DNA from: Branchiostoma floridae
Lineage: Eukaryota; Chordata; Leptocardii; Amphioxiformes; Branchiostomatidae
Length of the DNA stretch: 64,000 bases
Reading direction: 5' to 3'
Assembly (NCBI RefSeq): GCF_000003815.2
Contig: NC_049981.1
Span: forward strand, 4,376,437 to 4,440,436
The translations under genes were made by a program, and so were the position numbers. The notes beneath the pieces are model-generated. The model saw only the letters and a program-made list of their open reading frames with translations. It did no database searches and was not told where the DNA came from. Positions 1 through 58,293 of the stretch are shown piece after piece; within the stretch, counting starts at the first letter, position 1; every line of letters starts with the position of its first letter.

Positions 1-1
1 T

Positions 2-128
2 ACAAACAGACGTCAGTACCAGGATCAGGTCACCTTCACCTGTAACACAGGGTACAACCTGGCCGGCCAAACCAGACTTACCTGTCTTGTGAATGGTACC
101 TGGAGTGCAAGTCCGCCTACATGCAACC
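2..128 (+). CDS. Gene A CCP exon, partial
   Basis: Enters the window in frame 2. Shows the second to fourth Cys (FTCN, LTC, PTC) and the Trp. The exon is closed by GTTAGT, a weak donor compared with the GTAAG used by most neighbours. The first Cys lies outside the window. Confidence 0.85.
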
Positions 129-1461
129 GTTAGTAATCATGTTGTTTATTTTTAAACATCCCCACTGAACAAATTGTGTTCAAGCTGTACATTTTCTACT
201 CTGTAAAAGGCTCACATTGTGTTATTAATGTCAAGACTAATACAGTGCCCTTCTTATCATATTTTCTATTACAGCCATTCAATGTCCGGCTCCGACTGCA
301 CCATTAAACGGAGCGATAAGTCCTACCGGCTCGCAAAACTACCAGACGACAGTCAGCTACACCTGTAACAACGGATACTTACGGAACGGCGCTGCTGATG
401 CCACGTGCCAAGCTGACGGAACATGGAGCAACCTTGTTCTAACATGCACACGTAAGATGACGAAATTGTATTATACTGACACTTATCAGACGATAAAGAG
501 AGCAATGAAGGCACATATTGTGTTCAAAGCATTACAGACGGTTATAGATTCAAACCCGTTCCTTTTTTTCTTATAAGCACAGAAATATTTACATTATGAG
601 ATCCGCGTAATAAAATGTTATTGACCATTTCAGCCAGACCGTGTCCGGCGTTGACGGCCCCAACAAACGGGGCACGGTCACCAACTACCGGTTCAAACTT
701 CTACACGAACACGATATCGTTTACCTGCAACTCGGGATATCAACTAACCGGAACCTCTCCTCTAACGTGCCAAGCTGACGGAACATGGAACAATCCTGTT
801 CCAACATGCACACGTAAGTTGAATTTGACACTCATATATACAGACCATTTCTAGCAAAATGTAGTTATGTAGATACCTGCACTATGGTAGTTAGAGCAAA
901 TTAAAAGTGAGCGACCGAAGCGAACTTCTACCAGGACACGGTTACGTTCACCTGTAGTTTGTGGGTACCAACTGAACGGAGTCTTACATGTGATGTGCCA
1001 ATCTGACAGTATACTGTCTAGCAATGTCCATAGAATTGTTGTATACATATACAGTATTCAGAAGATGATATTTAGACACAATCCGTTCGTCGACGTCAAC
1101 AGGCGTCAATCTGCGCATATTCATGTTATAATAGGTAAATAGTAATAAAGGTTTTGATCATTTCAGGTATACAATGTCCGGTGTTGTCGGCCCCAACTAA
1201 TGGAATTCGGACACCGGCGACCGGAGCGAACTTCTAACAGGACACGATCACCTTCGCCTGTAACAACGGCTATGTACGGGTGGGAGATTTCGATAGCAGG
1301 TGTCAAGCTAACGGACAATGGACTAATCCCGTCTCAACATGCACACGTAAGATGTTTTTGACACTGATAAAGATGCGATGAATTTCTGGCAAAATGTACC
1401 TTTTTAACAACTACGTATAGTAATGAGAGCAGAGGGACTCGAATGTCCCCTCGCATCAATG

Positions 1462-1529
<68 letters not shown>

Positions 1530-4500
1530 GATGGCATGCAAACAGACGTCTACAAACAAACTGACATTACTTTACTTTTGCACGGCTGGTGTACGAAAGT
1601 TTGATAAGTCTTGGGGGTGGGGTGGGGGGTGTTATGGGGTGTAAAAAAAGGAAAATGCATATAAAGCAAAATTTTAATGACAAATGGACGATGGTATTGC
1701 CGGTAGTAATAAATGATTAAAAAATTGAAAAAAAAGAAAGTGCATCAGCTCGAGTTAGAACGCAAACTCGGAAGCCTAATATATACGAGTGCTAGTAAAG
1801 ATTCCAGATAACTATGTTATACGAGATGGAAGAGCGTATTAGGGAAGAGTATACGGGGAGAGCATATTAGACACTTATTACTACATGTATTTCAAACGTT
1901 GGCAAAAGACGTTGCTCTGTATACACTGCTTTCCTCAAAAGGTTCTTGAACAAGACTGGTAAACCTTTTCAGCCAGGCAATGTCCGACGTTGACCACTCC
2001 AGTAAACGGAGCACTTAGTTCTGCCGGGCCATACTTCTACCCGAACCAGGTTACAGTCACCTGTAACTCGGGATACCAAAGGAACGGAGTCTCTCCTGTG
2101 ACGTGCCAAGCCGACGGAACATGGAGCAACCCTGTCCCAACATGCACACGTAAGATGGTTTTGAACATATTATTACCAGTAATTTCTAGCAAAAATGTAG
2201 TTTTCACAGGCAAAAATTCTAATAGCGAGAAAATATTAAGAAAGGTTGCCACTCTCAGTATTGAAATGCTGGAAAAATGACGACTATAATCCAATTGTGC
2301 ATTGCACAAACATACACTAGATGTTGGTGAGAGAGCTGCTATAAACAATTCAATAAATATGTCCCTCTATGTGCATGTCTTAAAAGTCCTTAATAAACCA
2401 TTACAGCCGTACAATGTCCGGCGTTGATTGCCCCAACTTACGGAGCGCTGAATCCCCCGGCTGGACCATACGTCTACCAAAACCAGGTTACAGTCACATG
2501 TAACTCTGGATACCAACTGAACGGAGTCTCTCCCCTAACGTGCCAAGCTGACGGAGCATGGAGTAATGCAGTTCCAACATGCACACGTAAGTTGATACAT
2601 GATAGCAACTGTACTATTGTACCATTGAATTGCATTATTCATGCATTAAGATGATGGCACAGAAATTATAACAAACCAATTTCATGACTTACGTATATTA
2701 AAATAGAATAGACTTACATCGCGATAGGCGTTGTGCCTCTTAGATAATTTATAGATCCCCTTCAGAAAGTGTTATTGATCATTTCAGCCATACAATGTCC
2801 GGTTTTAAATGCTCCAACCAATGGAGCACGGACGCCCCCTACCGGAGAAAACTCCTATCAGGACGTGATCACGTTCACCTGTAGCTCGGGATACGTACGG
2901 AACGGTGCTTTTGATACGACATGCCAAGCCGACGGAACATGGAGCAACCCTGTTCCAACGTGCGAACGTAAGCTGAGTTTGCAAATTATGAAGGATGAAA
3001 GCGTTTACTAGCATGCTGTTCAGATAACTATTTTGCTAGAAAGGAAGAGACAAAACTTTGGACCTTCTAGCAAATCCTTTTGGAATTGCAGAGGCATTTC
3101 TGTCTAAAAGAGGATAACTCAAAGGAATAATGGATTTCTAATGATTTTTACACAAAGATGTACAAAACAAAATACAAATGATGCAAAATAGGAGGACATT
3201 TGCATAATTAATAAGAATATTTTATCGTAGCAGGTCTTCTGTTTTTAGAGCCTATAAGGTTATTCATCAAGTCCATTTTATCATTACAGCCAGACAATGT
3301 AATTCGTTGACGGCACCATCTAACGGAGCGCTGAGTCCTGCTGCACCGCACAACTTCCCTGCCACGGTTACGTTCACCTGTAACACGAGATACGTACGGA
3401 ACGGCGCTCAAACTACGACGTGCCAAGCTGACGGATCATGGAGCAACCCTACTCCAACATGCATATGTAAGACAACTCGCAAATTGATATCTACTGGGAA
3501 TTTTCAACGATTTGATGTACTGGTATGTAGGCATCTCCATAAACATATTAGAAAGAAATAGTATGATCTGTGTGACGTCTGTACAGAATTATATCTCCGT
3601 AATAAAAGGTTACTGAACATTTCAGCCGGACAGTGTTCGACGTTGACGGCCCCAACAAACGGAGCGCTGAGTCCTCTCGGAGCGACGTCCTTCGGGAATA
3701 CAGTAACGTTCACCTGTAACTCGGGATACCTACTGTACGGCGCAACTACATCGACGTGCCAAGCTGGGGGAGCATGGAGTAATACTGTACCAACATGCAG
3801 ACGTAAAACGACGTTTAATTTGACATACACTGACAAGTTCCGTCTAATTTTAGTATACGTAGGATGAACGGATGGGTTTCAAAATGATTAATGCTAAACA
3901 CATTTTTCTTCATACAAAAACATGATTGGCGTAATAGTTATAACGCGTCATTTGTTCTTTAGCACAGAAATATATCTTCGAAATAAGAAGTATTTGCCCA
4001 TTTCAGCCGTACCATGTCCACCGTTGGCGAACCCATCTAAAGGAGCGCTGAGTCCCCTAGGACCATATGCCTACCCGAACCAGGTTACGGTCACATGTAA
4101 CTCGGGATATGACCTGGATGGAGTCACTCCTGTGACGTGCCAAGCTGACGGAACGTGGACCAATTCTGTTGGAACATGCAGACGTAAGATAACTTTCGAC
4201 TCATCGATATTTGCAGTGCTACGTTACTTCTACCCCTAAAATGGGTATATGAATTGAATGAACAAAAATAACTTTTAAAAAGCGGTTTGGGCGTCCACTT
4301 GCAATATCTAGAGAGTTTTACTTGTAAAATTTATTCACAAGGTAGTAAAGAGAGTATTAAAAGGGAATTGTTTGACCTACTTTGACCAAACTTTAGCCAG
4401 GACCGGCCAATAATTTGTTCGGCAGCCAAGGCAGTCATTCCCGAGGACCTTCCATAAGCACTACGTGGACGTGCCATGTAGGAAAAGACTTGCCGGTCTG

Positions 4501-7500
4501 GCTAGGACTCTCGGTGTGTTTATCGAATGTCCTCGGAAAAGTATTGTCTTTGCCATCAAACAATTTTAGTATGAAGCATAGTCACTAGATTCATTGTGGT
4601 GCAGGTAAAATGTTTCTGGTGTAGGTGATATTCAATGTTACCTGCACCAGTGCAGATTTGCAGAAAAAAAGTATTTTGAGCCGATAAGGTTCTTCATCAA
4701 GTCTATTCTATTCTTACAGCCAGACAATGTAACGCGTTGACGGCCCCGACTAACGGAGCGCTGAGTCCTGCCGCACCGCACAACTACCCTGCCACTGTTA
4801 CGTTCTCCTGTAATGCAGGACACGTAGTGAATGGCGCTGAAACTACGAAGTGCCAAACTGACGGCTCATGGAGCAGCCCTGTTCCAACATGCACACAAAC
4901 ACGTAATATATGCTAGCAAAGTCAGTCGGAATTTTAATAGTAAGAATTAATATAGTATCAGACCAATGAATGATAATCATGGATCGAAAGGGGACATTTT
5001 TTTGGCATCTTCAATATAATCATAAGTTATATCGCAATGAAAAGTTCTTGAAATTTCAGCCGGGCAATGTTCGGTGTTGTCGGCGCCAACTAACGGAGCA
5101 CGGACGCCCCCTACCGGATCGAACTCATTTGGGAATACAATTACGTTCATATGTAACTCGGGACACGTACTGAACGGCGCGACAACTGCAACATGCCAAA
5201 CTGACGGAACATGGAGTAGTCCTGTTCCAACATGCACACGTAAGATGAATTCTCAGTAGATATATACCATCCGTATCCATTGAGTCTTTGCGTACGATTC
5301 AAATGTCGGATAAGTTATTGACTTATGCTAATAAATGTAAATGGTAGAATATACAGCTTTTGTTTACTTTTCTTTATTTAAAACATGATGGACAGGTATA
5401 GATGACAAGGCGTCGTTTTTCTAATCTTTAGTGCATAGACCCGCGAAATAAAATGCTGTTAATAGTTATGTCCAAGGAAAGTACGTGACCCCATAGATAA
5501 CCTAAAAGCATTAGTAGTTTATTGGACATACTTTCTAGCATGTCTTAAGAATCCATGTAACAAAAGTTACTGGCCATTTCAGCCAGACCATGTCCAGCGT
5601 TGACGACCCCGACAAACGGAGCGCTGAGTCCCCCCGGAACGTACACCTACCCGAACCAGGTTACGGTCACCTGTAACTCGGGATACCAACTGAACGGAGT
5701 CTCTCCTGTGACGTGCCAAGCTGACGGAACATGGAGCAACCCTATTCCAACATGCACACGTACATGTAAGACGACCTGCAAGTTGATATATGCTAGCAAT
5801 TCTAGAGCATTGTAGCATGTCAAAAAGAAGAATATAGTATCACAAAACGGAAACTACATGACAGCCTTTCCTTCGCCAAACTATATACGGCTCAAATATA
5901 GATAATCATGGATCAAAAGGCGGAGATGTTTGTTACGGAATATCCAGTATGCACATGCATGGCAATTAATGGTTATTGAACTTTCAGCCGGGGAATGTTC
6001 AGCGTTGTCGGCCCCAACTAACGGATCGCGGACGCCCCCTACCGGAGCAAACTTCTTCGGGAATACAGTAACATTCACCTGTAACGCGGGATTCGTACGG
6101 AACGGCGCGACAACTGCAACATGCCAAACTGACGGAACATGGAGTAGTCCTGTTCCAACATGCACACGTAAGATGAATTCTCAGTTGATATATACCATCC
6201 GTATCCATTGAATCTTTGCGCACGATTCAAATGTCGGATAAGTTATTGACTTATGCTAATAAATGTAAATGGTAGAATATACAGCTTTTGTTTACTTTTC
6301 TTTATTTAAAACGTGATAGACAGGTATAGATGACATGGCGTCGTTTTTCTAATCTTTAGTGCATAGACCCGCGAAATAAAATGCTGTTAATAGTTCTGTG
6401 CAAGGAAAGTACGTGACCCCATAGATAACCTAAAAACATAGTAGTAGTTTATTGGACATACTTTCTAGCATGTCTTAAGAACCCATGTAACAAAAGTTAC
6501 TGGCCATTTCAGCCAGACCATGTTCAGCGTTGACGACCCCGACAAACGGAGCGCTGAGTCCCCCCGGAACGTACACCTACCCGAACCAGGTTACGGTCAC
6601 CTGTAACTCGGGATACCAACTGAACGGAGTCTCTCCTGTGACGTGCCAAGCTGACGGAACATGGAGCAACCTTGTTGGAACATGCACACGTACATGTAAG
6701 ACGACCTGCAAGTTGATATTTGCTAGCAATTCCAGAGCATTGTAGCATGTAAAAAAGAAGAATATAGTATCACAAAACGGAAACTACATGACAGCCTTTC
6801 CTTCGCCAAACTATATACGGCTCAAATATAGATAATCACGGATCAAAAGGCGGAGATGTTTGTTACGGAATATCCAGTATGCACATGCATTGCAATTAAT
6901 ATTTATGGTTCTTGAACTTTTAGTCGGGCAATGTTCAGCGTTGTCGGCCCCAACTAACGGATCGCGGACGCCCCCTACCGGAGCAAACTTCTTCGGGAAT
7001 ACGGTAACATTCACCTGTAACACGGGATACGTACGGAACGGCGCTGCTACCGCTACGTGCCAATCTGACGGAACATGGACTAATCCTATTCCAACGTGCA
7101 CACGTAAGATGAGATTTTAGTTGATACATACCATCAGTTTCAAGTTAGTCTTAGTGTGCGTGATATTCTCACTTAGGATGAGTTTCAAATTGATTTATTT
7201 GATTTGATTTATCAATTCATTTAGCCAGACAATGTCCGGCGTTGATGGCCCCAACTAACGGAGCGCTGAGTCCTCCCGGACCGTACTCCTACCAGACCCA
7301 GGTTACGGTCACCTGTAACTCGGGATACCAACTGAACGGAGTCTCCCCTGTGGCGTGCCAAGCGAACGGAACATGGAGTAACATTGTCCCAACATGCATA
7401 CGTAAGACGTGTTTGACAGATATACAAGTATTGAATGTCTAAAGGTTAGACTTATTGAACTGTGCAAAGGACTGCTCATTCGGCTTGGGCATTGAATCAT

Positions 7501-12032: not shown

Positions 12033-12087
12033 ATGAAGCTTGCCCTGGGGATAGTCGGCGCACTCATGGTGGCTAATTTCAGCCTGG
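12033..12087 (+). CDS. Gene B signal-peptide exon
   Basis: ATG follows CTACACA. Encodes [18 protein letters not shown] plus one base, then GTAAGT. A Lys then a hydrophobic core is a typical signal peptide. Ends in phase 1, which matches every downstream module. The reading frame is open upstream but has no earlier in-frame ATG within the visible 5' stretch. Confidence 0.85.
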
Positions 12088-39000: not shown

Positions 39001-42000
39001 TATCCTAACGGATACAATTATAAAACGATAGTTATTGAATTTCAAACTGCAATTACCCAATATCTGCTAGAGGCAAAGGCCTGACCTCAGCACTCAGGAC
39101 AAAGAAATGTACACGTCCAACAATCGCTTGTAATGTGGAACATTTAAGGCATCTTGATAACAGTAATGCACAAGCTTTAATCTCATCTTTTTCATATCAG
39201 GTGGAACTAATGAAAGGGAATTTATCATCCAACTAAAACATCCCTTTTATACAATGTTTTGGGTTCGGAGTTATGCAGGAAGAAGACGTGACAACTATGC
39301 ATTAATAAACAAGTATTTTCTGTCCTAGAAATCTACATTTCCTCCACAAAACGGTTATTCACTTACACCACTCAGACCAATCTATACTGTAGCTTTTAAT
39401 CCGTTACTTGATAATAGTTACCTGTATGTAGACTAGACCTCTGACCCCCAAGTTCCAAACCTACGTATCAAGCTTAACTTATGTTCTACTGAAGACGGTT
39501 TGTCTTTAGGCTTAATCTTGTTGTTTCATTTGAAGTATACGTCAACCATTGAAGTTAGTAATGTGTATTCTACGAGAACTGTAAATGTATGTATATGTGT
39601 TGGCACCCAACTCAGCTGAGTGTCGTTGTGGCCACCCAACCCAAACTATGGGGCACATTACAAAGGCCTGTGTATATATAAAATACAACACGGCGTATTC
39701 CGTATCACCTGAGGTATCAGCTCGACCGCGGGTTGGATCGCACGACGGCCGAAGGCCGGATGGTGATCCGACCCGCGGGAGGGCTGAGACCGAGGGTGAT
39801 GCGGAATACACCGTGTTGTATTTTATTTATGTCATACCCACCTGAGAAAACCACTATTTGATGCCATTTTGAATGCGCCAGAAGTTGAACAAATTGGTTG
39901 CCCTCGAAAAAAAACGCGTTGCAACAGTAATGTTCCAACGTCCGAATCAGGTATTCGAACTTTCGATGGCGCCGTACTCGGCCCACACGAAACATGTTCG
40001 ATTTATTCGAATGGAGCCCGTGTGATAACCCCGGGCCGTACGGAAAGTTATCATCCGGTCCGGAACACCCGTATCGAACGTTTTCACGTCACAGGTATGG
40101 CATAATAGGCCATACCACCTCCAACCAGGACCAACTAGAAGCTTACGAGAAGGCCGTGGCTTGACTGCAGTACTGGCACGGAACGATATGATGATGATGA
40201 TGGCACCCAATATTAGCTGCAAATCCAATAAATAGATAAATAAAGATCTAAAGCTGATCTATGAATGGCTATCAACACGTATGTAACTTATAAAACTGGA
40301 ACAGCCAGCCAACCAATTACTCACATTTTCATTTGAATAATCAAACAGCCTCAGTCGATCTTGCTCGAGGTCTACAAATGTAGCTGCAGGTCAATGGTTT
40401 GCCTCGATGAATCTTTAAAAAGGATGTAGTACCTACACAACCTACAGAAATGTAGGTTGTGTAGGTAGAGTTCATAGTTTTGTCTTATTTTCAATATGAA
40501 CTCTTGTAATAGGTAAGACTTGTAAAGTTGCTTGATTAAAGGAAAACCAGATTTGATATTTTAAAGAATGCATTATCATGAAAACAATGAAAGCTGTAAC
40601 AAAGTATATTCATATGTTATCTTGAAATTAAATTACGATATTTGTTCTATTCTTTGCAATGAGCGAATGCGAACTATTTCACAATAGAGTATCTTTACAT
40701 AAGTCCTCTCAATATGTTCATGGGTTCTACAGGTTCTGGTACAGGTTCAGGCATACAATGCCAGGCGTTGACGGCCCCAACTAACGGAGCGCTGAATCCA
40801 TCTGCCGGACCGTACGTCTCCCAGCAGGAGGTCACGTTCACCTGTAACACGGGATACCAACTCAGTGGCAGTTCTACCAGTAGGTGCCGAGCTGACGGAA
40901 CATGGAGTAGTGCTGTCCCAACATGCACACGTAAGTTTTCTGAAAGTCTCATACCACCATTAGACCGTACTAGTGGTGCGTACCTAAACTCATATTCAGG
41001 TTCAGGTCCGGAATCAGGTCCAGCAGTTCAGGTTCAGGTCCGGACTTTAAGTGACGTGCCAAGCTGACGGAACATGGAGCAACACTGTCCCAACATGCGC
41101 ACGTAAGAAGTGTTTGGCAGATATACAAGTACTGAATTTCTAAATGTTAATGTTAGACTTGTTGAACTGTTACGTTTTGGCATTGAATCATATTGTTTAT
41201 TGTTTAAATGTAGTATTGATAAATAATAGTATTACTAGGTTGTCCAATATTCATCTGAATTTATTCCGCTTTTACGAAATAAAACACCTTGTTATAGAAG
41301 TTGAAATCTTCCCAATCCGTGTAAAAATAGAGGAACTTGCACTGACAGGGACAATGACTTCCAATGCGCATGTTTGGCTGGGTATGAAGGAGATACTTGT
41401 CAAACAGGTAAGTATAGGGTCTATAATATGCATACACCTGTTTGTCACTCCTTTTCTGACCACTTGTGCATTATTTATGTATAGATGTAGAAGACCTCAC
41501 GAAAGTCACTCTCAGGCAGTTTAAGGCCTGTGACACCCGCAGATTCTCCAGTCTAGCAGTTATATGGCCGTAACTTTCGAAGTAACTATCAGTTTTCAGC
41601 AAAATTTGGCCCGTTGACGTAATTCACTCATATTCAAAATTTGATGACAAAAAAATCTGGATTCTGAATATTTTGGGTTAAAAATGATTTTTTGGTAAAA
41701 AATAGTGATGATATTAAGATGGGTCTGTGCCCACTATGAAATGACTGTCTAACAGAGTCATATTTTCTGGAGTAACAGATTACATCTCTGTGATATCTAA
41801 TATGCCCGGGCCTTTTGCCGCTAAACATCAGTAAGGCTTTATTTTGGGGCAAAAACATAGTTTTTTGATGACTTTGGGGCATTTTTTGTACAAATATCAA
41901 CCGAAATCAAAGATATTGCAAGAAGGCCCGCTTGATTTCCGAAGGTCCAAGGCGTAATGAACGTAAATCTGCTAAAAACTCGTCATAAAACCGGTATCCT

Positions 42001-45000
42001 GATGTGGGCAGCAGCTGACGAAACACTACTTACCATACAAGAACTGGGTCAAAGTATGTTTCACTGTACGTAACGTTAACCGATGGTAAAACATGAATGT
42101 TTTATGTCTGTATCTGCCAAATCGCAGTTGTAACAATGCGAAATTCGCAAGCAGTTAGCCTTATAAGGCATCAGTCAACTGCCATACAATCATTTTGGGC
42201 TAGAAAAGTCGATTTTTAGCTTTACTTTGCTGTTTCCTTGAAGTATGAGCGCCCCCGGGCTGTTTTCGGGGGAATCCGAACGCGTGTTCGAACGTTCGGA
42301 CGGTACCATAAGCGGCCCTCGCGGGGGTCCCTTTTTGTTAACTGCATCTGGTTATGTCAATATTTGATAAATACAAGGTCAGTATCTTTAACATTCAACA
42401 TTAATAGTATCAAGAAAAGTATTTAGTGTGACCCATGCATTCAAACTCCTGTATCATCCGTTGCACCAACTACATCGGCAACTATCGATGTGACGCCTTC
42501 TGCTACTCTTGGGACGCCTACAGTTCCACAGGTTTCGACATCGCCGGCGTCCGTGTCTCCCCCAACAGTTTGCTCTCCCATCTGCGGAGTCCTGGCGTCC
42601 TGCGTCCTCATCACCAACGGCGCAGCGCGGTGTTTCTGTAACCCAGGCTTCACAGGGGACGGCTTCACGTGTAGTGGTGAGTTTTAAAGATACTGCAATC
42701 GATTCGATTCGGCACGTTTTTTCTTCTAAAATCTTGATCGATCATACAACGATTTTCAAACCCCATCGTGATATGTTTGCTTTTAGAATAATTAAAGGAC
42801 GTTGTGTTTCATTGTTAAACCTCAAGTATTGTTTGTGGTTGCGTGTGTGTGAGAGCGCACACGTGTGTGTATGTATGTGTGTGTTTCTACCATTCAGAAT
42901 TTGCATATGTTCTATCACGCATTTAACGTGGAGATGTACATCTGATTATTTTGTTCTGTTCCTTTATTCATTAGATGTTGATGAATGTTCCACCTCCCCG
43001 TGCACGGGTCCGAATGAGCGCTGCAAGAACCGGCCGGGCAGTTTTGACTGTGTCTGTCTTCCCACTTACATTCGGTGGGGAGATGACGGCAACTGTACAG
43101 GTACGTAACGTCCTATAAAGGTATCACCACTACTTGAGTCATCTACGAACCCCGCAGTGCCGCAACGGTGCCCAAAGTGCAGAGAGAGTCCACCTTAAAG
43201 CCCCCTTCACACGAGAGCACGAATGAGCCGGAATGCCGTCCGAATGAATGTTTTTTTCTATTCGTGGCAATTCCTCGCAATTCGTACTGTATTCTAAACA
43301 TTCTTACTGCATTCGAGATATTCTTCCCCGTTCGGCTGGCTCGAAAGTTTTTGACATGTTAAGTGGAGAAATATCGAATGGCATTCGTAGTGGATTCTTA
43401 GTGTATTCTAACTATTCTGACTGCAGTCTGACCGCATTCTACGGCATTCTAACATTATTCGAAACATTCTTATCTCATTCGATGGAGAACCGAAACGGCA
43501 AGCCACCTCGAATTCTGCCAGAATGTGGCCGGAAGAATATTTCGAATGCCGTAAGAATGTCTAGAATGCACTACGAATTCACAGAAATAGACAAGAATTT
43601 TCATTCTGACGGCATTCCGGCTGATTCGTGTGAAGGGGATTTAAGGCCCATTTGGAATTCCTACCCGAATGGCCCCGAATGTGACACGAAGTTTGCAAAT
43701 ACTTCATTCCGGCTGGTTCGGCTTGATTCCTGCTAATTCGATTTCCGTGTGAAGGCCCTATTAACTAAAGCATTGATACGAATTTCAGTCTCAAATTAAG
43801 TGAGATATTTCTTCCTTCTTTGAAATTTCATCATAGCCAGAATTTTTTTTTAGATTTCATTTGCAAGATATTAACGTTCGGTCTTCTTTCTATTACATTT
43901 GATAGCGACCAGCAGGCATAATATCGACGTCACCTACACAGACAACTTTGATTACAATCCCGACCAACACGATAGAAACAGTAACGGCTTCCAGGCAGAG
44001 AGACAGCGGCATATCAACGAGGTACGTTCCAAAATAGCTCTCGTTCGCTATATGATCAGTCTTGTGCATGTTTAGCTATGAAGGACGACTATCAGCGAGA
44101 CAAAACTGATACTGTGCAATATTAGATGATACTATTTCTTGATGATTGTAACATCTACATGAAATTGCTACTATTTAACTATAACTGCTGCAACAGTTTT
44201 TGTATCTTTTGATCTGAAGATGTTCAGATCAACAGTCAACAGATTGGAGTGGTGGATATCTCTCGTTCAGTTATTGTATGTAACATTAAAGGGAATTCTA
44301 TTTGCCTTTCATGCAGTTTGATGATCTAGTAGACGATTGGGTGGACAATGTCCCAGATGTGGACAAAGTTGCCACGTCATTCAACAACTTCCGAAGCGGG
44401 AGCCTCATTGCCAATAGTGACGTCATCCTGGCGGGAAAGCCGCTGTCTAGTGCGCAGGTGCAGGAGGGTCTAAACAGCCGAATCACCTCTGATCCGAATT
44501 CAAACTTTAAACAAGTCACAGCGAAACGTAATTCAAATTTCACTAATTTTTTTTAGAATCTGTGTGAATTGAGTTAAAAGTGATCATTTTTTCTACAAAC
44601 TATAGGTTTAAAATCGTTGGACAAAACTCGTCTGTGACTCTTTCTGGTGGGAGATCTAATATGTATACAGTAAAAAGTAAACATAGTGATTGACAAATAT
44701 TTCGAATAACATCACTCTAAAAGCAAAAGCCTAGACCTCGTGTAAATTTGGTTGACGTTACAGGCTCCATGCGAATCAAAAAGTTTGAATTGATTCAAAA
44801 AACAGCTGAACACTATCTAACAACGTTGTTAGAAATTGACATGTTATATCCATACATAAAGTAAATATGCTTTGAACAAGTCCTCTGACCCTTCTCGAGA
44901 TGTTTTGACCTGAAAACCTACGTCAATTGACCTGAGCGGAATTGTGACGTCAGCAACGGGTCAAAGGGGTCCGGCAGTCGGTATCGGCCCCCGTCTTCAC

Positions 45001-47639
45001 TTTGTGTTCGGATATATCGTGTAAATTTCTTACAGCGTTGATTATCGTCACAGGCGAACTTTGATACGAATCACAAAACGTTCTGTTTGTGAAATCTCTT
45101 CCTTTTAGCTTACGATTACTGCGGCGACCCCAACACACAGGACGCCTGCTACAGTCGGGACTACTGCACCAACACGGACACGGGCGGCTTCACCTGTCAG
45201 TGCCCCCCGACTCATATAGACGACTCTCCCGATGGCCTACCCGGGCGCAAATGCAACAGTAAGTGGACTCATAGTTATATCTCTGGGAACAGGGGTGCCT
45301 AAGCATTTGCACGAACCATATGAAATTCGTACGAATATTATGTGATACACACGAATCACTATGCGAAAACGCACGAATATTATGAAATTCGCACGAATCA
45401 CTATGCAAAAACGCACAAATATTATGAAATTCACACGAATCACTATGTGATTCACACGAACCTTTAGTTATGAGATTTGCACGATCCTTATGCAAAAACG
45501 GCGGCCGGGAGGAGGCATAATTTTGAGCGTTTCCACCCGTGATATTTATATTTCAAGGCATGGAATGGACATTTACCGTCGCAAAGATGTATTTGATAGC
45601 CTGTGAGCTGCAAATATACAAAAGTAACGGTCTCCTCTGTCAGCACTGGAACACCAGCGCTGAAGTTGTCGTCAGCACTGGAAGTCCAGTGCTGAGCCAG
45701 CGTCAGCACTGGAAATCTAGTGCTGAGGCAGCACTGGGAGGCCTCCTTTCAGCACTGGAAATCCAGTGCTGATTGTAGTCTCAGCACTGGATTTCCAGTG
45801 CTGAAGACGTTTATAACAATTTTAACGAAATTAACCTGTCTAAAACGTCTTCAATCACGTTACTAACTTCTCAAAACAACCTTTTGATATACCTTCTACC
45901 GCAGCTCGAGCCAGAAACATGAATAACAACGAAGATTGATCTGCTGTCTACAATTACCCCGGCCCTTTTCAGGGCCACCGAAATGATTCTAGAAAGGGCT
46001 ATATCTATCACACAATTCAATAAAATCACAAAGTCATGCACAGGTATATCTAAGTCTAAAGGAAATAAATCAGCCGTACGGACGCTTGCTACATGAATAT
46101 TACGTTCAGCACTGGAACGTTCCAGACTGAGTGCTTTATAAACGTCAGTACTGGAAGCCCAGAGCTGACGGTTTTACAGCATTGGTGTTCCAGTGCTGAA
46201 AAGTTCCAGAGCACTGGTAAATCCAGTGCTGAACCCGTTACTTTTGTATATCAGCACTCGGTTCCAGTGCTGACGGCAGTTTCAGCACTGGGTAACCAGT
46301 GCTGAATGACCTTTGAAGAGCCTCTCCGCCTCTCCGCCGCGAGTTCAGCACTGGTACCCGAGTGCTGACGGCAGTTCAGCACTGGAATACCAGTGCTGAT
46401 GTTTCTTCAGCACTGCATAGCTGTGATTTAGTTCTGTCAATAAATATTACCTTTGTTAAAAACGTAAACTATTTCCGGCGTTATGAAGAAAGTTTATCTG
46501 TGTGGGAAGTAATCATAGTATAATGCTAAACTTTCTTCCAACACAGATTTGAAGGTTTACATGGATCAAATTTTTAACGACCACTACTGATGACTAATCA
46601 CTTCAGAACGTAAATTCGTGGAAGTTACATGCACGTGATCTTTCTCAGCACGTGATCTTGTGGATATGTGACGTCAGCAAGTGGTCAAACCTGTCAGGAA
46701 TTTTATAACGCCTACGGTCCCTGTTCAGTGATGCCTCGAGTGCCGTTGTTTAATAATCACATTGAAAACAGGAAATTTATTGATATCTTGTCCATGTACC
46801 CATTAAATCAAATGCTTGCTTTTACAGAAATGCCCCTTTTGGGTTTCGCAGCCGTGGTAGGTACCGCAGTCGGCAGTCTTGTCGGCGGACTGCTACTAGT
46901 GGGCGCTGTTACACTACTGATTCTGCGCTGCCGGAAAGCGAGGAACCAAGAACATGATACAGGTATAGTACATGTACACCAATAAGCAGCTAATCAAGAA
47001 AACGGATATGATTCTGGAAACGGTCAGACATGTACATTTAAAGCAACATCTATTGTTTTTCGTCAGTGACAGTGTCTTTTGGCGTATCTTATAACCTTAA
47101 TGTCAATTTTTTATCGTCGTTAAGTACATATAGTATATATCTAAAATTGTTATCTTAAACCATTCAAAAAGGCGGTTCAGGAATACTTGTTTTACTTACC
47201 ATTCAAGACAATGAGATAAGAGATGTGAGTTGGTAGACATATTCTTTTTAAAACATATAGATATATAAAGTTAACAGGTAGTATTGTTTCTTTTTGATGA
47301 ATATATTATAAGAACTTCTAAATCCAGTTGCTGGACAATTAAGACTCAAAATCTACTGTATTCTCCAATATTGCAGCGGAGGCAGTTTACGAAGACGTCC
47401 GCACACTGCCAGGCAGGGCGGTGTCTCAGCGATCCGGAACCGGAAGTGACGTCTACTACTCCTATCCCATGGCACCCTTGCCCGTACCTCCGCTTCCGTC
47501 CCAACCTAGCGGCCATTACCAGGAGCTGAGGCCAGCGGTGTACCAGAGTCTACAAAGGCACCAGCGTACAACACCCCAACCCAAGAACTCAACCGGGGAT
47601 AGAAGCGCGTTCACTATTTCACATGATTTTTCAACGTAG
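12033..47639 (+). CDS. Gene B: CCP/EGF/vWA/SEA mosaic membrane receptor
   Basis: Predicted type I membrane protein of about 1,900 residues from roughly 35 exons. Order: signal peptide; microexon; 14 CCP (17188-31130); EGF, EGF (31674, 32173); vWA over two exons (32819, 34569); CCP 35334; EGF 36193; CCP 37033, 38297, 38718, 40751; frameshifted EGF 41298; Thr/Ser/Pro stalk plus EGF 42427; Ca-type EGF 42975; SEA 43906 and 44317; EGF 45109; TM 46828; tail 47377. All module borders are phase 1; the vWA and SEA domains are each split by a phase 0 intron. The architecture recalls SVEP1-like and other adhesion proteins but adds a membrane anchor and signalling-type tail. The 100-N gap at 20548 may hide a further CCP exon. 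Single-gene status is inferred from phase continuity and would be tested by cDNA. Confidence 0.82.
12764..12793 (+). CDS. Gene B 30-nt microexon
   Basis: Acceptor GGCTTTCTTACAG, donor GTAAGT, phase 1-1. Adds FCQTIPPAL between the signal peptide and the first CCP. Both splice sites are strong and the phase fits, but so short an exon needs transcript support. Confidence 0.6.
13371..13433 (+). pseudogene. 5'-truncated CCP exon relic
   Basis: Only the last third of a CCP exon remains (GCGACGTGCCAAGCTAACGG then TGGAGTAACCCTGTCC and TTGCACAC followed by GTAAG). No acceptor or first two Cys upstream. Confidence 0.75.
14101..14550. mobile_element. hAT-like TIR element with 8-bp target duplication
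   Basis: Inverted ends TAGCCTGGGTACCATCCGGA ... and the reverse complement at 14510-14542. Flanked by GTATACTG (14101-14108) and GTATAATG (14543-14550), 7 of 8 matching, the target-site length expected of hAT transposons. No transposase inside, so non-autonomous. Internal short repeats of ACTATATACAGT(C/T)GCTTCT. Confidence 0.75.
14790..15385. repeat. Diverged repeat related to the 1.33-kb family
   Basis: Contains CCCACATACCAAATATCAAA followed by a CCATCCATC...GTTCCCTAGTTAT motif. The same phrase occurs at 18178-18230 and at the end of the inverted copies near 49145 and 50990. Confidence 0.55.
15393..16735 (+). mobile_element. 5'-truncated CR1/Jockey-type LINE
   Basis: Begins within reverse transcriptase at the catalytic FADD box (YINDMVDG ... 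[11 protein letters not shown]). A frame break near 15617 is followed by a 216-codon frame from 15710 with [20 protein letters not shown], the conserved RT-thumb region. A stop and then a CNCG...[14 protein letters not shown] zinc-knuckle-like tail follow to 16658. Dead copy; lies in the first large intron of gene B. Confidence 0.85.
16745..17054 (+). mobile_element. tRNA-derived SINE with 13-bp target duplication
   Basis: Body 16758-17041 starts GCAATGGCCTAGTGGGTAGA and has an RNA pol III B box (GAGTTCGATCCCC at about 16806-16818). It ends in a TTTGAC repeat tail. Flanked by perfect TGATGTGACTATT copies at 16745-16757 and 17042-17054. Inserted just after the LINE tail. Confidence 0.9.
17188..17364 (+). 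CDS. Gene B CCP exon 1 ([12 protein letters not shown])
   Basis: 177 nt, acceptor TTATTTTAG, donor GTAAG. Four Cys. CQVDLTWSN replaces CQADGTWSN. Confidence 0.9.
17880..18300. repeat. Partial copy of the 1.33-kb repeat family
   Basis: Matches the end of the inverted copies: AGCTGCTAGAGGGCCCAAAC, GTTCTGTTGCAGTACC, CCTACCCAAATACCAAATAT, GTTATGCTGACC and an (AC)n-rich tail ending in AAAATTATACCTCCA. Same orientation as the 47.9-kb copy. Confidence 0.7.
18774..18950 (+). CDS. Gene B CCP exon 2 ([12 protein letters not shown])
   Basis: 177 nt, acceptor CCCCAACAG, donor GTACAT. Four Cys; more diverged from the gene A consensus than exon 1. Confidence 0.88.
19005..19255 (+). mobile_element. Diverged second copy of the tRNA-derived SINE
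   Basis: Aligns to 16785-17020: TTGCAGTCGGTAGGTCGTAA, a degraded B box (GTTCGTTCCC), CCAAAGACTT, GCTTTCTCTGC, and GGCGCCGTCCGATGCACCAT. The A-box end is replaced and no target duplication is visible. Confidence 0.75.
19341..19517 (+). CDS. Gene B CCP exon 3 ([12 protein letters not shown])
   Basis: 177 nt, acceptor TTTATTTCAG, donor GTAAG. Four Cys, [11 protein letters not shown] loop. Confidence 0.9.
19941..20536. mobile_element. TIR element, about 0.6 kb
   Basis: Left end TTTACAAATCAAGAATTTAG then CTCGGCCGA is mirrored by TCGGCCGAGCTCAATTCTTG then ATTTGTGA at 20499-20528. The right flank has GTTAA, the left GTAAA. No transposase. Ends about 12 bp before the assembly gap. Confidence 0.7.
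20548..20647. other. 100-N assembly gap
   Basis: Exactly 100 N, the usual placeholder for unknown length. It sits in the intron before CCP exon 4 and next to a C-run; sequence, possibly exons, may be missing. Confidence 0.95.
20738..20914 (+). CDS. Gene B CCP exon 4 ([12 protein letters not shown])
   Basis: 177 nt, acceptor CGATTCTAG, donor GTATGA (weak). Four Cys. First exon after the gap. Confidence 0.87.
21472..21648 (+). CDS. Gene B CCP exon 5 ([12 protein letters not shown])
   Basis: 177 nt, acceptor GTTACCTCAG, donor GTACAT. Four Cys; CSAR replaces CPAL after the first Cys. Confidence 0.88.
22292..22468 (+). CDS. Gene B CCP exon 6 ([12 protein letters not shown])
   Basis: 177 nt, acceptor CTCTGTTTTAG, donor GTATGT. 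Four Cys. Confidence 0.9.
23151..23327 (+). CDS. Gene B CCP exon 7 ([12 protein letters not shown]) with GC donor
   Basis: 177 nt, acceptor TCCTTTTTAG. The position where neighbours have GTAAG reads GCAAGT (23328-23333), a canonical GC-AG donor context. Four Cys; [11 protein letters not shown]. Confidence 0.85.
23500..23605 (-). mobile_element. SINE fragment (second family), reverse orientation
   Basis: On the minus strand reads GGCACTTTACACGACCTTCC then CTCAC..ACCTAGGTGTAAAA and a GTACCTGACTTCGGTC tail. Related to 25440-25720. Confidence 0.65.
23606..23720 (+). mobile_element. tRNA-like SINE head fragment
   Basis: TGTGGCGTAACTGGTAAAGC GTTCGGCT resembles a pol III A box of the GGCGTA-N-TGGTA-AGCG type. 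The body decays within about 100 bp. Confidence 0.45.
23952..24128 (+). CDS. Gene B CCP exon 8 ([12 protein letters not shown])
   Basis: 177 nt, acceptor TTTAATCCAG, donor GTATAT. Four Cys; CLADQTWSA variant. Confidence 0.88.
24168..24411. mobile_element. TTAA-flanked MITE, family 1
   Basis: Left TIR TTAAGGTGGTATTTCACTG; right TIR is its approximate complement (GTGCAGTGAGATACCACGTT). Internal TCAACGAATTTCAGAGATGA and AATAACAAAACAGTG are shared with 32537-32782 and 54734-55214. Abuts or interrupts the LINE end that follows. Confidence 0.7.
24412..24991 (+). mobile_element. LINE 3' end (Jockey-like) with (ATT)n tail
   Basis: Frame reading [37 protein letters not shown], and [12 protein letters not shown] stop, the conserved C-terminus of many Jockey-superfamily ORF2 proteins. 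A 3' UTR follows, with AATAAACC then ATTATTATTAT at 24971-24991. 5'-truncated. Confidence 0.8.
25020..25105. repeat. (GAGT)n microsatellite
   Basis: Imperfect GAGT units becoming perfect from about 25064 to 25102. Confidence 0.93.
25185..25361 (+). CDS. Gene B CCP exon 9 ([12 protein letters not shown])
   Basis: 177 nt, acceptor TGCGTCTAG, donor GTGCGG (weak). Four Cys; CRADGSWNN. Confidence 0.88.
25440..25720 (+). mobile_element. tRNA-derived SINE, second family
   Basis: ATGGCCGTGTGGCGTAGTCG (A-box region), B box GGAGATTCGAAACC, then TCTTGTGCCCTTGGGAAAGG CACTTGACACG, poly-T and poly-A tracts and a GTTAAAGAACCCACAG tail. Decayed relatives at 23500, 30400 and 36545. Confidence 0.8.
25824..26000 (+). 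CDS. Gene B CCP exon 10 ([12 protein letters not shown])
   Basis: 177 nt, acceptor GTCTCTTCAG, donor GTGAG. Four Cys; ends TVATC, so the usual Pro before the fourth Cys is Ala. Confidence 0.9.
26125..26215. repeat. Short foldback
   Basis: GGGCAAAACGCAATCCCCAG GGGCAT at 26128 is mirrored by ATGCCCCTACTGTGTTTTGC CCCC at 26189. Probably a small palindromic MITE remnant. Confidence 0.5.
26556..26732 (+). CDS. Gene B CCP exon 11 ([12 protein letters not shown])
   Basis: 177 nt, acceptor GTTAATCTAG, donor GTACGT. Four Cys; CQSDQTWSA. Confidence 0.9.
27190..28470 (+). mobile_element. tRNA-headed repeat with internal tandem array
   Basis: Head 27195-27285 resembles a tRNA gene (B box GGGTTCGAATCC). 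Then a hairpin TATTTCAGCCATACC/GGTATGGTGAAATA, a TTTCTTTC run, the 162-bp tandem array, and an end reading GCTGTATTTGCTCTCAAGCA AATGTCGGCC. A second full copy runs in reverse at 60300-59890; partial reverse copies at 61200-61480 and 63410-63740. Confidence 0.7.
27620..28230. repeat. 162-bp tandem repeat
   Basis: The phrase CATACGGTACAACA starts at 27620, 27782, 27944 and 28107, spacing 162, 162 and 163 bp. Each unit also has TCCTGTAGCCTCGTTTTACA and AATTATGTGCACATAAATTC. Units are highly similar, the last one diverging. Confidence 0.95.
28628..28953. mobile_element. TIR element (TTAGGCTTAGGTCC family)
   Basis: Left TAAGGCTTATGTCCTAATTT, right CCAATTGGGACCTAAGCCTAA-type end; the right end and GGGCCCCTTTT are shared with 34232-34490. 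Non-coding. Confidence 0.6.
29055..29228 (+). CDS. Gene B CCP exon 12 ([12 protein letters not shown])
   Basis: 174 nt, one codon shorter than its neighbours (WSHVPTC). Acceptor TGTTTTCCAG, donor GTAAG. Four Cys. Confidence 0.88.
29287..29532. repeat. Intronic about 230-bp conserved repeat, copy 2
   Basis: GCTTATCTGTGTAGTTAGTA ATCATAG, ACACGTGATCTTTCGGATAA and GTGACGTCAGCAATTTGTC match the A and B 3'-end introns although no EGF/TM exon lies here. Confidence 0.7.
29748..29921 (+). CDS. Gene B CCP exon 13 ([12 protein letters not shown])
   Basis: 174 nt, acceptor GTCGTTTCAG, donor GTAAAG. Four Cys; last Cys in VAPC. Confidence 0.88.
30400..30655 (+). mobile_element. tRNA-derived SINE, degraded
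   Basis: ATGGCGTAAGTGGTAGCGCA resembles an A box and GAGGTCGATTCTAGC a B box. The 3' part contains AATAAAGTTCTATCTCTATC, ending just before the TIR element at 30675. Confidence 0.55.
30675..30846. mobile_element. Short foldback MITE (GGCTTAGGTCACATTTCC ends)
   Basis: About 40-bp inverted ends: GGCTTAGGTCACATTTCC then CAGGGCCCCGGCCG, mirrored by CCGGCCGGGCCCCGGTCT then GGAAATGTGACATAAGCC. About 170 bp in all. Confidence 0.75.
30954..31130 (+). CDS. Gene B CCP exon 14 ([12 protein letters not shown])
   Basis: 177 nt, acceptor TTGCTATTGCAG, donor GTAACT. Four Cys; last CCP before the EGF pair. Confidence 0.89.
31674..31790 (+). CDS. Gene B EGF exon 1 (Ca-binding type)
   Basis: 117 nt, acceptor TTGTACACAG, donor GTTGG (weak at +4/+5). 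[10 protein letters not shown] start and NTIGSFQC are the Ca-binding EGF signature; six Cys. The Asp of the motif is completed across the intron. Confidence 0.9.
32173..32295 (+). CDS. Gene B EGF exon 2 (Ca-binding type)
   Basis: 123 nt, acceptor GGTTTATAACAG, donor [18 protein letters not shown] and LPGSYTCNC; six Cys. With EGF 1 it forms the rigid Ca-linked pair usual before a vWA or adhesive domain. Confidence 0.9.
32537..32782. mobile_element. TTAA-type MITE, family 1, upstream of vWA exon
   Basis: Left AAGGTGGTATCTTACTGCAC TTGCGTCAAGCTTGCGGGG, right TIR CGCGGTGACGTAAGCTTGAC GCAGG ... AGTGCACTTTAA. Ends 36 bp before the vWA acceptor. Confidence 0.75.
32819..33123 (+). CDS. Gene B vWA domain, exon 1
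   Basis: 305 nt, phase 1 start, phase 0 end, acceptor TTTTCGGTGTTAG, donor GTTCGA (weak). Reads [20 protein letters not shown] ... HIGLVQYDD ... [10 protein letters not shown]. The first metal motif DxSxS reads DSADL here, so both Ser are missing; the Thr is kept. vWA folds mediate protein-protein or matrix contacts. Confidence 0.9.
33172..34234. mobile_element. TTAA-flanked TIR element, about 1.06 kb, splitting the vWA exons
   Basis: Left TTAAGCCCCGGTCACAAAGC GCATAGGATTTCTTGCGATG; right reverse complement ...CATCGCAAGGAATCGTACGC GCTTTGTGACCGGGGCTTTA. Target TTAA/TTTA. Inner GCGCTTTGTGACCTCGACTT at 34108 suggests a nested second end. No transposase frame. Lies wholly in the phase 0 intron of the vWA domain. 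Confidence 0.8.
34232..34490. mobile_element. TIR element (TTAGGCTTAGGTCC family), second copy
   Basis: Right end CCCTTTTTGCAATTGGGACC TAAGCCTAA matches 28931-28953. CGCAGGGGTCACGCCCA and CTGCCCGACAGGGCCCC have counterparts in that copy. The left end abuts the 1.06-kb element. Confidence 0.6.
34569..34842 (+). CDS. Gene B vWA domain, exon 2
   Basis: 274 nt, phase 0 to 1, acceptor TTTCTTGTCGCAG, donor [25 protein letters not shown] contains the MIDAS Asp (VTDG); [11 protein letters not shown] and [14 protein letters not shown] complete the fold. Confidence 0.92.
35334..35516 (+). CDS. Gene B CCP exon 15 (divergent)
   Basis: 183 nt, acceptor GTCATCCTAG, donor [50 protein letters not shown]: four Cys and Trp. 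Sequence is far from the QCPxLTAP class, so it belongs to an older CCP lineage. Confidence 0.87.
   Translation: MFTVENHVHQHLVPGKARYTRVEAWITAVLTVTHWSVPPPSHAREPARPEPGVIPILPFA
35520..36190. other. Intron, short local repeat only
   Basis: 35573-35650 has three to four degenerate copies of GCGAAACGACT(T/C)...TTGTTACGAAACGACTCA. Otherwise no element recognised. Confidence 0.5.
36193..36300 (+). CDS. Gene B EGF exon 3
   Basis: 108 nt, phase 1-1, acceptor CATTTTACAG, donor [20 protein letters not shown] and [14 protein letters not shown]; six Cys. Closest relative in the window is the gene A EGF at 7612. Confidence 0.9.
36421..36670. repeat. Poly-G and poly-C runs with SINE remnant
   Basis: G-run at 36422-36437 and C-run at 36652-36669. 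Between them ATGATCTTGTACTCTCGGAA resembles the second SINE family. Confidence 0.6.
37033..37215 (+). CDS. Gene B CCP exon 16 ([12 protein letters not shown])
   Basis: 183 nt, acceptor GCAATTTCAG, donor GTAAG. Four Cys; two extra residues (RQL) before the first Cys and CQADERWSN in the last loop. Confidence 0.9.
37431..37737. mobile_element. Long-TIR MITE, about 0.3 kb
   Basis: Inverted arms over 100 bp each: AAACTGTAATATCCAACA, AAATTTTCGACTGAACAG, GTCTTTGTCAAGGAATGAAC and CCCACTGCTGTTGTGACG all have complements on the right side. A half copy lies at 54850-55045. Confidence 0.85.
38297..38476 (+). CDS. Gene B CCP exon 17 ([12 protein letters not shown])
   Basis: 180 nt, acceptor CCCATTGCAG, donor GTAAG. 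Four Cys; [12 protein letters not shown] as in gene A 634-813. Confidence 0.9.
38718..38897 (+). CDS. Gene B CCP exon 18 ([12 protein letters not shown])
   Basis: 180 nt, acceptor CCAATTTTAG, donor GTAAG. Four Cys. The first 45 bp of the following intron (AAGTTTTCTGAAGGTCTCAT) match the intron after 40930, showing a local duplication. Confidence 0.9.
39678..39826. mobile_element. 149-bp foldback MITE
   Basis: ATAAAATACAACACGGCGTA TTCCGTATCACC is mirrored by GGTGATGCGGAATACACCGT GTTGTATTTTAT. Near-complete hairpin with a GC-rich centre. Confidence 0.88.
40733..40930 (+). CDS. Gene B CCP exon 19 with three in-frame acceptors
   Basis: CCP core 40751-40930 ([12 protein letters not shown] ... 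PTC), donor GTAAG. AG acceptors end at 40732, 40744 and 40750, all phase 1, so the exon can start with a Gly/Ser/Thr linker (GSGTGSG) of 0, 2 or 6 codons. Four Cys. Confidence 0.87.
41052..41102 (+). pseudogene. CCP 3' fragment
   Basis: ACGTGCCAAGCTGACGGAAC ATGGAGCAACACTGTCCC then AACATGCGCAC and GTAAG. The upstream part is replaced by CAGGTTCAGGTC repeats with an in-frame stop. Confidence 0.8.
41298..41407 (+). pseudogene. Gene B EGF exon with 4-bp deletion
   Basis: Aligns base by base with the gene A EGF 7612-7725, but 15 bases of the first-Cys region are 11 here. The EGF frame therefore cannot be entered from a phase 1 intron. Downstream Cys codons are intact in the lost frame. In the frame actually entered, the exon is open and ends in phase 0. 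Acceptor TGTTATAG, donor GTAAG. Confidence 0.75.
42427..42676 (+). CDS. Gene B Thr/Ser/Pro stalk plus EGF exon 4
   Basis: Open from a TTTAG acceptor (phase 0) through a mucin-like stretch ([40 protein letters not shown]) into an EGF with six Cys ([12 protein letters not shown] ... GFTCS), donor GTGAG. An alternative phase 1 acceptor CCTACAG at 42523 would shorten the stalk. The first fits if exon 41298 is used, the second if it is skipped. Likely O-glycosylated. Confidence 0.75.
42975..43100 (+). CDS. Gene B EGF exon 5 (Ca-binding type)
   Basis: 126 nt, acceptor TTTATTCATTAG, donor [23 protein letters not shown] and RPGSFDCVC; six Cys with a longer last loop ([13 protein letters not shown]). 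Confidence 0.9.
43194..43644. mobile_element. TTAA-flanked TIR element, about 450 bp
   Basis: TTAAAGCCCCCTTCACACGA ... CCGGAATGCCGTC mirrored by GACGGCATTCCGGCTGATTC GTGTGAAGGGGATTTAA. The interior is rich in ATTC/GAAT words. A related right end (CCGTGTGAAGGCCCTATTAA) follows at 43744-43763. Target TTAA suggests piggyBac-type mobilisation. Confidence 0.82.
43906..44021 (+). CDS. Gene B SEA domain, exon 1
   Basis: 116 nt, phase 1 to 0, acceptor CATTTGATAG, donor [24 protein letters not shown] then [11 protein letters not shown]: first strand and helix of a SEA-like fold. Confidence 0.75.
44317..44527 (+). CDS. Gene B SEA domain, exon 2
   Basis: 211 nt, phase 0 to 1, acceptor CCTTTCATGCAG, donor [30 protein letters not shown] matches the SEA core, where autoproteolysis occurs at G-S before hydrophobic residues (GSVVV in mucins). 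Here GSLIA keeps G-S, so self-cleavage is possible but unproven. Confidence 0.8.
45109..45258 (+). CDS. Gene B EGF exon 6
   Basis: 150 nt, acceptor TCCTTTTAG, donor [29 protein letters not shown] and GRKC: six Cys with a long last loop. Final ectodomain module before the TM exon. Confidence 0.85.
45300..45500. repeat. Degenerate tandem repeat with ACGAAT motifs
   Basis: Four to five copies of roughly 46 bp built from CGCACGAATATTATGAAATT and CGCACGAATCACTATGCAAA. Immediately precedes the palindrome array. Confidence 0.85.
45614..46430. repeat. Array of short CAGCACTGG/CCAGTGCTG palindromes
   Basis: About 13 hairpins of 22-28 bp plus two half copies, in clusters 45640-45804 and 46105-46430. 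Each reads TCAGCACTGG, 3-7 variable bases, CCAGTGCTGA. Spacers between hairpins differ in sequence. A 17-bp inverted pair (45614-45630 and 46235-46251, ATATACAAAAGTAACGG) brackets most of it. Located in the intron before the gene B TM exon; gene A's matching intron lacks it. Confidence 0.95.
46480..46702. repeat. Intronic about 230-bp conserved repeat, copy 3 (E-box plus CRE)
   Basis: CACGTGATCTTGTGGATATG TGACGTCAGCAAGTGGTCAA ACC aligns with gene A 7893-8126. A shorter echo (GTGACGTCAGCAACGGGTCA) lies at 44944-44963. Confidence 0.75.
46828..46962 (+). CDS. Gene B transmembrane exon
   Basis: 135 nt, phase 1-1, acceptor CTTTTACAG, donor [35 protein letters not shown] then [10 protein letters not shown]. 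Same length as gene A's TM exon; one of the two juxtamembrane Cys is Arg. Confidence 0.92.
47377..47639 (+). CDS. Gene B cytoplasmic tail exon
   Basis: Acceptor AATATTGCAG, ends TAG. About 87 residues: [37 protein letters not shown], then ISHDFST. Compared with gene A it has one extra Tyr and an eight-residue insertion near the end; all Tyr motifs are kept. Confidence 0.92.
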
Positions 47640-50030: not shown

Positions 50031-50032
50031 AG

Positions 50033-50200: not shown

Positions 50201-50233
50201 TTCATTCATGGGAAAAAACTTGTCCTGAAGTTT

Positions 50234-54165: not shown

Positions 54166-54226
<61 letters not shown>

Positions 54227-56700: not shown

Positions 56701-56770
56701 GACGCGTGTACGGTAAACTCAATAGCCTGAACTTTACCCTCAGACGTGGTCGTCCCATTGAGCTGTCAAT

Positions 56771-58290: not shown

Positions 58291-58293
58291 CCG

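Follow-up and report, generated by a model that had tools for sequence, protein, structure and literature searches.

We analyzed a 64-kb window of the genome of the lancelet Branchiostoma floridae (GCF_000003815.2, contig NC_049981.1, forward-strand positions 4,376,437 to 4,440,436; coordinates below count from the first base of this stretch). It carries two plus-strand genes in tandem, here called A and B, each of which ends in a transmembrane exon and a cytoplasmic tail exon with a stop codon (at 9454 and 47639, respectively). An initial annotation made from the sequence alone had proposed such a gene pair and had placed both genes among membrane receptors with CCP (Sushi) arrays; both proposals were borne out. 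The window is animal-like DNA with a GC content of 38 to 44% per 4 kb, and its single gap of 100 N (20548 to 20647) lies within gene B, where it could hide a further exon.

CCP exons span the plus strand from the left edge of the window to 41 kb. Our Pfam scans covered the three plus-strand frames of positions 1 to 60002 and, on the minus strand, sequence beyond position 48998. Sushi was matched in all three frames of positions 1 to 15002 (E values of 1.9e-60, 3.7e-62, and 4.2e-53) and in the best frame of the 15- to 30-kb interval (E value of 2e-89). A CCP profile seeded with 33 CCP exons from the window itself was searched against six-frame open reading frames from both strands and returned 41 rows with an i-Evalue below 0.1, all of them on the plus strand. 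Thirty-three of the 41 were the profile's own seeds, and the eight others were the intact exon at 23151, a piece at the window edge, and remnants of decayed copies. Neither the reverse strand nor any of three shuffles of two-base blocks yielded a match to the profile. Pfam Sushi supports these exons independently of our self-built profile, and at the level of sequence we regard the plus-strand CCP exons as confirmed. Other Pfam matches were discarded: Dermatopontin (E value of 0.0054) coincided with the CCP exon at 23151 and was attributed to chance, Ephrin_CRD lay on or beside CCPs below the cut-off, and 14-3-3, DUF281, Peptidase_M60_C, and other weak families were also below the cut-offs.

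Gene A is cut by the left edge of the window, with its 5′ part outside. The visible part was modeled as 15 intact CCP exons, an EGF exon, a transmembrane exon, and a tail exon, which together encode an open 1,057 residues. The CCP exons occupy 275 to 7401 (starting at 275, 634, 1973, 2407, 2788, 3290, 3626, 4007, 4720, 5060, 5583, 5988, 6513, 6924, and 7225) and are all phase 1-1. They are followed by the membrane-proximal EGF exon (7612 to 7725; Pfam EGF E value of 1.8e-7) and by hand-modeled transmembrane (8251 to 8385) and tail (9219 to 9454) exons. Left out of the model were an incomplete CCP at the edge of the window (5 to 127; i-Evalue of 8.9e-17), a decayed CCP with a broken frame that the CCP profile recognized (914 to 1028), and a CCP exon identified from the profile and the sequence that has intact splice sites and an in-frame stop codon (1167 to 1346).

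Gene B was assembled by hand from Pfam matches in raw frames and splice sites seen in the sequence. The model spans 12033 to 47639 in 32 exons and encodes 1,828 residues, with a start codon, a stop codon, and no internal stop; at this length the product is large, not giant, as the initial annotation had called the receptors. In order, it consists of a signal peptide, 14 CCP, 2 EGF_CA, a vWA, a CCP, an EGF, 4 CCP, an EGF, an EGF_CA, a SEA-like stretch, an EGF, a transmembrane segment, and a tail. The candidate signal-peptide exon (12033 to 12087), judged by eye, runs from an ATG and ends in phase 1. The distal array lies at 17188 to 31130 (exon starts at 17188, 18774, 19341, 20738, 21472, 22292, 23151, 23952, 25185, 25824, 26556, 29055, 29748, and 30954), followed by two EGF_CA exons (31674 to 31790 and 32173 to 32295; Pfam E values of 3.6e-13 and 3e-8 in separate frames), the vWA domain in two exons (32819 to 33123 and 34569 to 34842), a divergent CCP found by the CCP profile and Pfam (35334 to 35516), and an EGF exon called by Pfam on the joined piece (36193 to 36300). 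Pfam on this joined piece gave E values of 2.2e-34 for VWA, 2e-20 for EGF_CA, and 2.3e-6 for Sushi. Closer to the membrane are four CCP exons at 37033 to 40930 (starts at 37033, 38297, 38718, and 40733), which are the nearest to the CCPs of gene A, then an EGF and an EGF_CA exon (42569 to 42676 and 42975 to 43100; Pfam and hand model), the SEA-like stretch in two exons recognized by eye (43906 to 44021 and 44317 to 44527), an EGF-like exon assigned by its pattern of six cysteines (45109 to 45258), the transmembrane exon of the hand model (46828 to 46962), and the tail exon (47377 to 47639).

The junctions of gene B are phase 1 throughout, except for one phase 0 junction inside the vWA domain and one inside the SEA-like stretch. 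All 25 CCP and EGF exons (19 CCP and 6 EGF) are phase 1-1, and the vWA domain and the SEA-like stretch are so as well when each is counted as a two-exon unit. GC takes the place of GT at the start of the CCP intron that follows 23327. Because the exons were chosen by hand, the agreement of phase is support, not proof, for a single transcript. It is highly improbable, in our view, that the pair is an artifact in which gene B fuses several genes or two haplotypes of a single gene were set in tandem as A and B. A draft sequence with a 100-N gap would allow for such an error, and the available text of PMC4967905 holds that lancelet gene models are often wrong. Against a fusion, however, the 32 exons of gene B stay in phase throughout, with no stop or transmembrane exon found between them.

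The gene B model excludes relics at 13370, 41051, and 41299, the first of which (13370 to 13432), detected with the CCP profile, retains only the 3′ third of a CCP. A scan for cysteine-rich phase 1-1 exons yielded a sole candidate (21163 to 21300), which was not domain-like by eye and was excluded. A Ser/Thr/Pro-rich reading just 5′ of 42569, possibly part of a mucin-like exon, was also excluded, as there is a better acceptor downstream. Directly after the EGF exon, plus-strand positions 36395 to 36430 resemble, by eye, the beginning of another CCP (CPPQNVG) and end in a poly-G run, and an intron of gene B contains about four copies of a 162-bp tandem repeat (27490 to 28318).

Three blocks of gene A align with gene B: 7350 to 7828 with 41051 to 41510 (78%), 7831 to 8446 with 46420 to 47029 (74%), and 9130 to 9454 with 47288 to 47639 (80%). 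Since gene A is contiguous at 7828/7831 in this alignment, gene B carries an extra 4.9 kb (41511 to 46419) at a clean breakpoint, and the EGF, EGF_CA, SEA-like, and EGF exons lie within this extra stretch. On its left it adjoins the decayed counterpart of the last CCP and EGF exons of gene A (41051 to 41409). Only the 3′ third of this CCP remains at 41051, its 5′ part being gone, and at 41299 a small deletion has broken the frame of the EGF exon and removed its first cysteine, so that the gene B copy is a relic. Thus, whereas the initial annotation had the two genes sharing EGF, transmembrane, and tail exons and even intron sequence, the sharing holds for all of these but the EGF exon. On its right, the extra stretch adjoins a cluster of palindromes that ends where the A/B intron homology resumes. 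The palindromes, of about 24 nt (TCAGCACTGG...CCAGTGCTGA), are clustered at 45609 to 46422 with a 22-nt inverted-repeat pair (45609 to 45630 and 46235 to 46256), and in its sequence the cluster looks like a small mobile element. By eye, no target-site duplication was seen at the cassette breakpoint, so an insertion in B and a deletion in A are not distinguishable. Gene A looks most similar to the membrane-proximal half of gene B, and the strong ectodomain difference claimed earlier for the two genes holds for the visible part of gene A only.

The same alignments bear on the haplotype form of the artifact. The A/B introns differ at 25% of aligned columns before the transmembrane exon and at 20% before the tail exon, and the 3′ flank differs at 25 to 35%. 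Together with the 4.9-kb block this is much for alleles, although next to the EGF exon the intron divergence is only about 10%. On the intron divergence and the 4.9-kb difference, we hold haplotype duplication to be unlikely.

The intron before the transmembrane exon of gene B also contains a histone mRNA 3′ stem-loop (45956 to 46002, plus strand; Rfam RF00032, 37.1 bits against a gathering score of 34), and Pfam on the plus strand of 45001 to 60002 found no histone domain near it. The element might offer a route to a soluble, tail-less ectodomain.

The transmembrane segment has a mean hydropathy of 2.45 over 19 residues and is followed by RCRKAR. Both tails keep three YxxPhi motifs (YEDV, YQEL, and YQSL, the last two being only four residues apart) as well as four PxxP matches in a proline run. 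Taken 60 ungapped columns at a time, the tail exon has A/B identities of 95, 92, 97, and 87%, compared with 72% in the two windows before it and 65 to 75% in the five after it. The tail has a nonsynonymous rate (dN) of 0.072 and a ratio of nonsynonymous to synonymous rates (dN/dS) of 0.47, and the transmembrane exon has a dN/dS of 0.22. Synonymous changes between A and B number 8 of 57.2 sites in the tail and 16 of 37.7 sites in the transmembrane exon (Fisher P = 0.0034, on rounded counts). With so few synonymous changes in the tail relative to the transmembrane exon, gene conversion or added constraint possibly acted on the tail exon.

The CCP arrays show the gain and loss that the initial annotation had read from them. 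Gene A contains three copies of a two-CCP unit (5031 to 7401; exon pairs 5060/5583, 5988/6513, and 6924/7225), with a spacing of 928 and 936 bp between first members and 930 and 712 bp between second members, and the introns of the first two copies are 97% alike. Decayed CCP exons are present in both genes. Of five recent CCP pairs within gene A, four have dN/dS values of 0.38, 0.45, 0.54, and 0.51, and the fifth (5583/6513) has no synonymous and five replacement changes. Pooled by hand, the five pairs have about 32.5 synonymous changes in 226 sites and 53.5 replacement changes in 656, a ratio near 0.54, and they are not independent because two exons are each used twice. Two A-B pairs gave 0.29 and 0.33. 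The duplicates are thus under purifying selection that is partly relaxed, not under positive selection. In a tree of 34 CCP exons, 8 of 31 inner branches were well supported. Clade tests used 33 of these exons, with the divergent exon at 35334 dropped. A single clade of gene A CCPs was rejected (p-AU, 0.020), and a clade of gene A CCPs with those of gene B at 37033 to 40930, a group chosen after the first tree had been seen, was not (p-AU, 0.277).

The identity of the SEA-like stretch is unproven. By eye, it reads FRSGSL where MUC1 has FRPGSV, and neither Pfam nor a PDB sequence search, each at E values up to 10, called a SEA domain in it; of the four families that the initial annotation had put forward for a domain search, Sushi, EGF, and VWA were called by Pfam. 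The score of its alignment to the MUC1 SEA domain was matched by 99 of 2,000 shuffles in local and 177 of 2,000 in global alignment. These negative searches are not decisive, because the SEA domains of different proteins in PDB match each other weakly by sequence (MUC1 to the SEA domain 1ivz, E value of 0.0099).

One alternative in which this region matters is that A and B serve as structural proteins for adhesion or matrix anchoring in epithelium or notochord and recognize nothing non-self, with the EGF-SEA-like-EGF-transmembrane end of gene B serving as a mucin-like stalk. The combination of vWA, EGF_CA, and CCP is a typical matrix set, the vWA domain of gene B had its best score in PDB with collagen VI (PTMP1, vWF, and integrin alpha chains were also among the best 60 of 68 matches), and the order of domains at the membrane is that of mucins. 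We give this alternative a modest chance, since array length and membrane-proximal cassette differ between the tandem paralogues and exons are decaying, which fits weak constraint on ectodomain length, and since the proposed stalk has no Pfam SEA call.

A second alternative is that the genes encode complement regulators of the RCA type, whose CCP arrays would bind C3 fragments on self cells, limiting complement attack there. In PDB, CR1, CR2, and factor H stand at the top of the relatives of three gene A CCPs, and DAF and MCP are also there, among the best 60 of 97 matches. However, the same list includes CCP proteins of different function (beta-2-glycoprotein I, factor XIII B, E-selectin, and MASP-1). 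Further, RCA proteins are concatenated CCPs according to the part of PMC6683126 available, whereas gene B adds vWA and EGF domains and in both genes the tyrosine tail is conserved. We therefore consider this alternative unlikely.

The explanation that we favor, with moderate confidence, is that A and B, as tandem paralogues, encode type I membrane receptors in which a constant tail is combined with an ectodomain varied through phase 1-1 exon shuffling. Three features speak for a type I receptor, namely the conserved tail, the candidate signal peptide, and a transmembrane segment with basic residues behind it. With CCP and EGF exons in phase 1-1, their addition, loss, or skipping leaves the frame intact. 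Each protein would present a rod of CCP modules outside the cell and a short tail, common to A and B, inside. The arrays have expanded by duplication of intron-flanked units, as in the two-CCP unit of gene A, and contracted by exon decay, as in both genes, and the whole membrane-proximal cassette (EGF, EGF_CA, SEA-like, EGF) sets A and B further apart, with the tail held constant while the ectodomain changes. The ectodomain might contact a microbial or cellular ligand through many CCP sites, and clustering could then gather the tails, whose YxxPhi motifs and proline run may lead to uptake or to SH2/SH3-type signaling. Most likely, such a receptor would serve phagocytosis or adhesion and sit on the blood cells or epithelial cells of an invertebrate. 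That this is a self/non-self or microbe recognition locus of a basal chordate, with CCP array length and membrane-proximal cassette varying between individuals, we also hold to be unlikely.

Several observations weigh against the favored explanation. The nonsense codon in the exon at 1167 to 1346 may make gene A a null allele or pseudogene unless the exon is skipped; the exon is phase 1-1, so the frame of gene A survives its skipping, and its inclusion truncates gene A. The conservation of the tail is less striking than its nearest flanks imply, because the intron before the tail has, further upstream, windows that are 78 to 87% identical between A and B, and the introns beside the EGF exon reach 90 to 92%. 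A motif search of both tails found no ITAM, ITIM, NPxY, PPxY, or class I or II SH3 patterns, with the first two defined as YxxL/I-x(6-12)-YxxL/I and [SIVLT]xYxx[ILV]. In the vWA domain of gene B, DSADL stands at the DxSxS position, which makes metal-dependent ligand binding doubtful; the threonine and aspartate that, with DxSxS, form the MIDAS metal site are kept by eye. Lastly, positive selection in the CCPs, sought through dN/dS of duplicate pairs, was not found (about 0.5, not above 1). Of the fast-evolving recognition or adhesion locus that the initial annotation had expected, array turnover is thus retained and positive selection is not, and ligand recognition is something that we infer.

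Outside the two genes, the window contains other features. Between A and B, reverse-transcriptase-like open frames with a FADD motif were seen by eye at 15.14 to 16.66 kb on the plus strand, where the plus-strand Pfam scans found no reverse-transcriptase family. A large inverted repeat lies just 3′ of gene B (47945 to 52207), with five pieces that are 92 to 96% complementary, about 1.3 kb per arm, and 245-bp tandem repeats in both arms. On the minus strand, the interval of 50.37 to 56.77 kb has an NHL-repeat match near 50.4 kb (Pfam E value of 2e-7) and an open frame of 503 residues (55254 to 56765) that is NHL-protein-like by eye. An H-type lectin domain follows at 58.44 to 58.62 kb on the minus strand (Pfam E value of 3.7e-11) and possibly represents another recognition gene beside the receptor pair.

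The locus displays the remaking of a receptor at base resolution, with unit duplication, exon decay, a whole-cassette difference with clean breakpoints, and a nearly fixed tail exon. The available text of PMC4284660 describes fast exon shuffling in lancelets, with a preference for phase 1-1 domain exons, many novel domain combinations, and an enrichment of transposon fragments in translocated regions, whereas that of PMC4967905 argues that such novelties may be gene-prediction errors. If RNA confirms the model of gene B, it would provide a concrete case in this dispute. Among related literature, PMC12373286 reports presence-absence variation among lancelet immune genes (its main text uses neither the word sushi nor CCP), PMC6683126 describes five motifs in order across three CCPs of RCA proteins, and PMC11788884 deals with domain pairs in vertebrate evolution. 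The architecture of gene B was not named in the titles and abstract openings searched, among the matches listed.

Transmembrane mucins have the order EGF-SEA-EGF-transmembrane. Gene B resembles them in its order of EGF, SEA-like stretch, EGF, and transmembrane exon and differs in having a CCP array in place of the mucin region and no Pfam SEA call. CR1, CR2, and factor H are like gene A in their tandem CCPs, as the PDB list for three of its CCPs also indicates, but gene B mixes CCPs with vWA and EGF. Polydom/SVEP1, like gene B, unites vWA and EGF modules with a long array of CCPs in a single protein (PMC10281526, available text). By its sequence, however, gene B has a transmembrane exon and tail and is not a secreted matrix protein. 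Pentraxin, a Polydom/SVEP1 domain, was not among the families in the plus-strand Pfam scans at E values up to 0.5 or 1, which a domain split over short exons could escape. The available text of PMC5465252 describes a polymorphic complement-receptor-like CCP gene of Ciona with splice variants, proposed as an individuality marker (vCRL1, a name from its reference list). A and B are likewise complement-receptor-like with CCPs, but that text mentions no vWA, EGF cassette, or tail of the A/B type for it. Finally, A and B are like the phase 1-1 shuffled multidomain proteins of lancelets described in the accessible part of PMC4284660 in that their neighboring domain exons share phase 1-1, and gene B further resembles them, at this one locus, in the palindrome-rich, transposon-like sequence at its right breakpoint. 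We see the locus as a good illustration of a process already known rather than as a system of a new kind.
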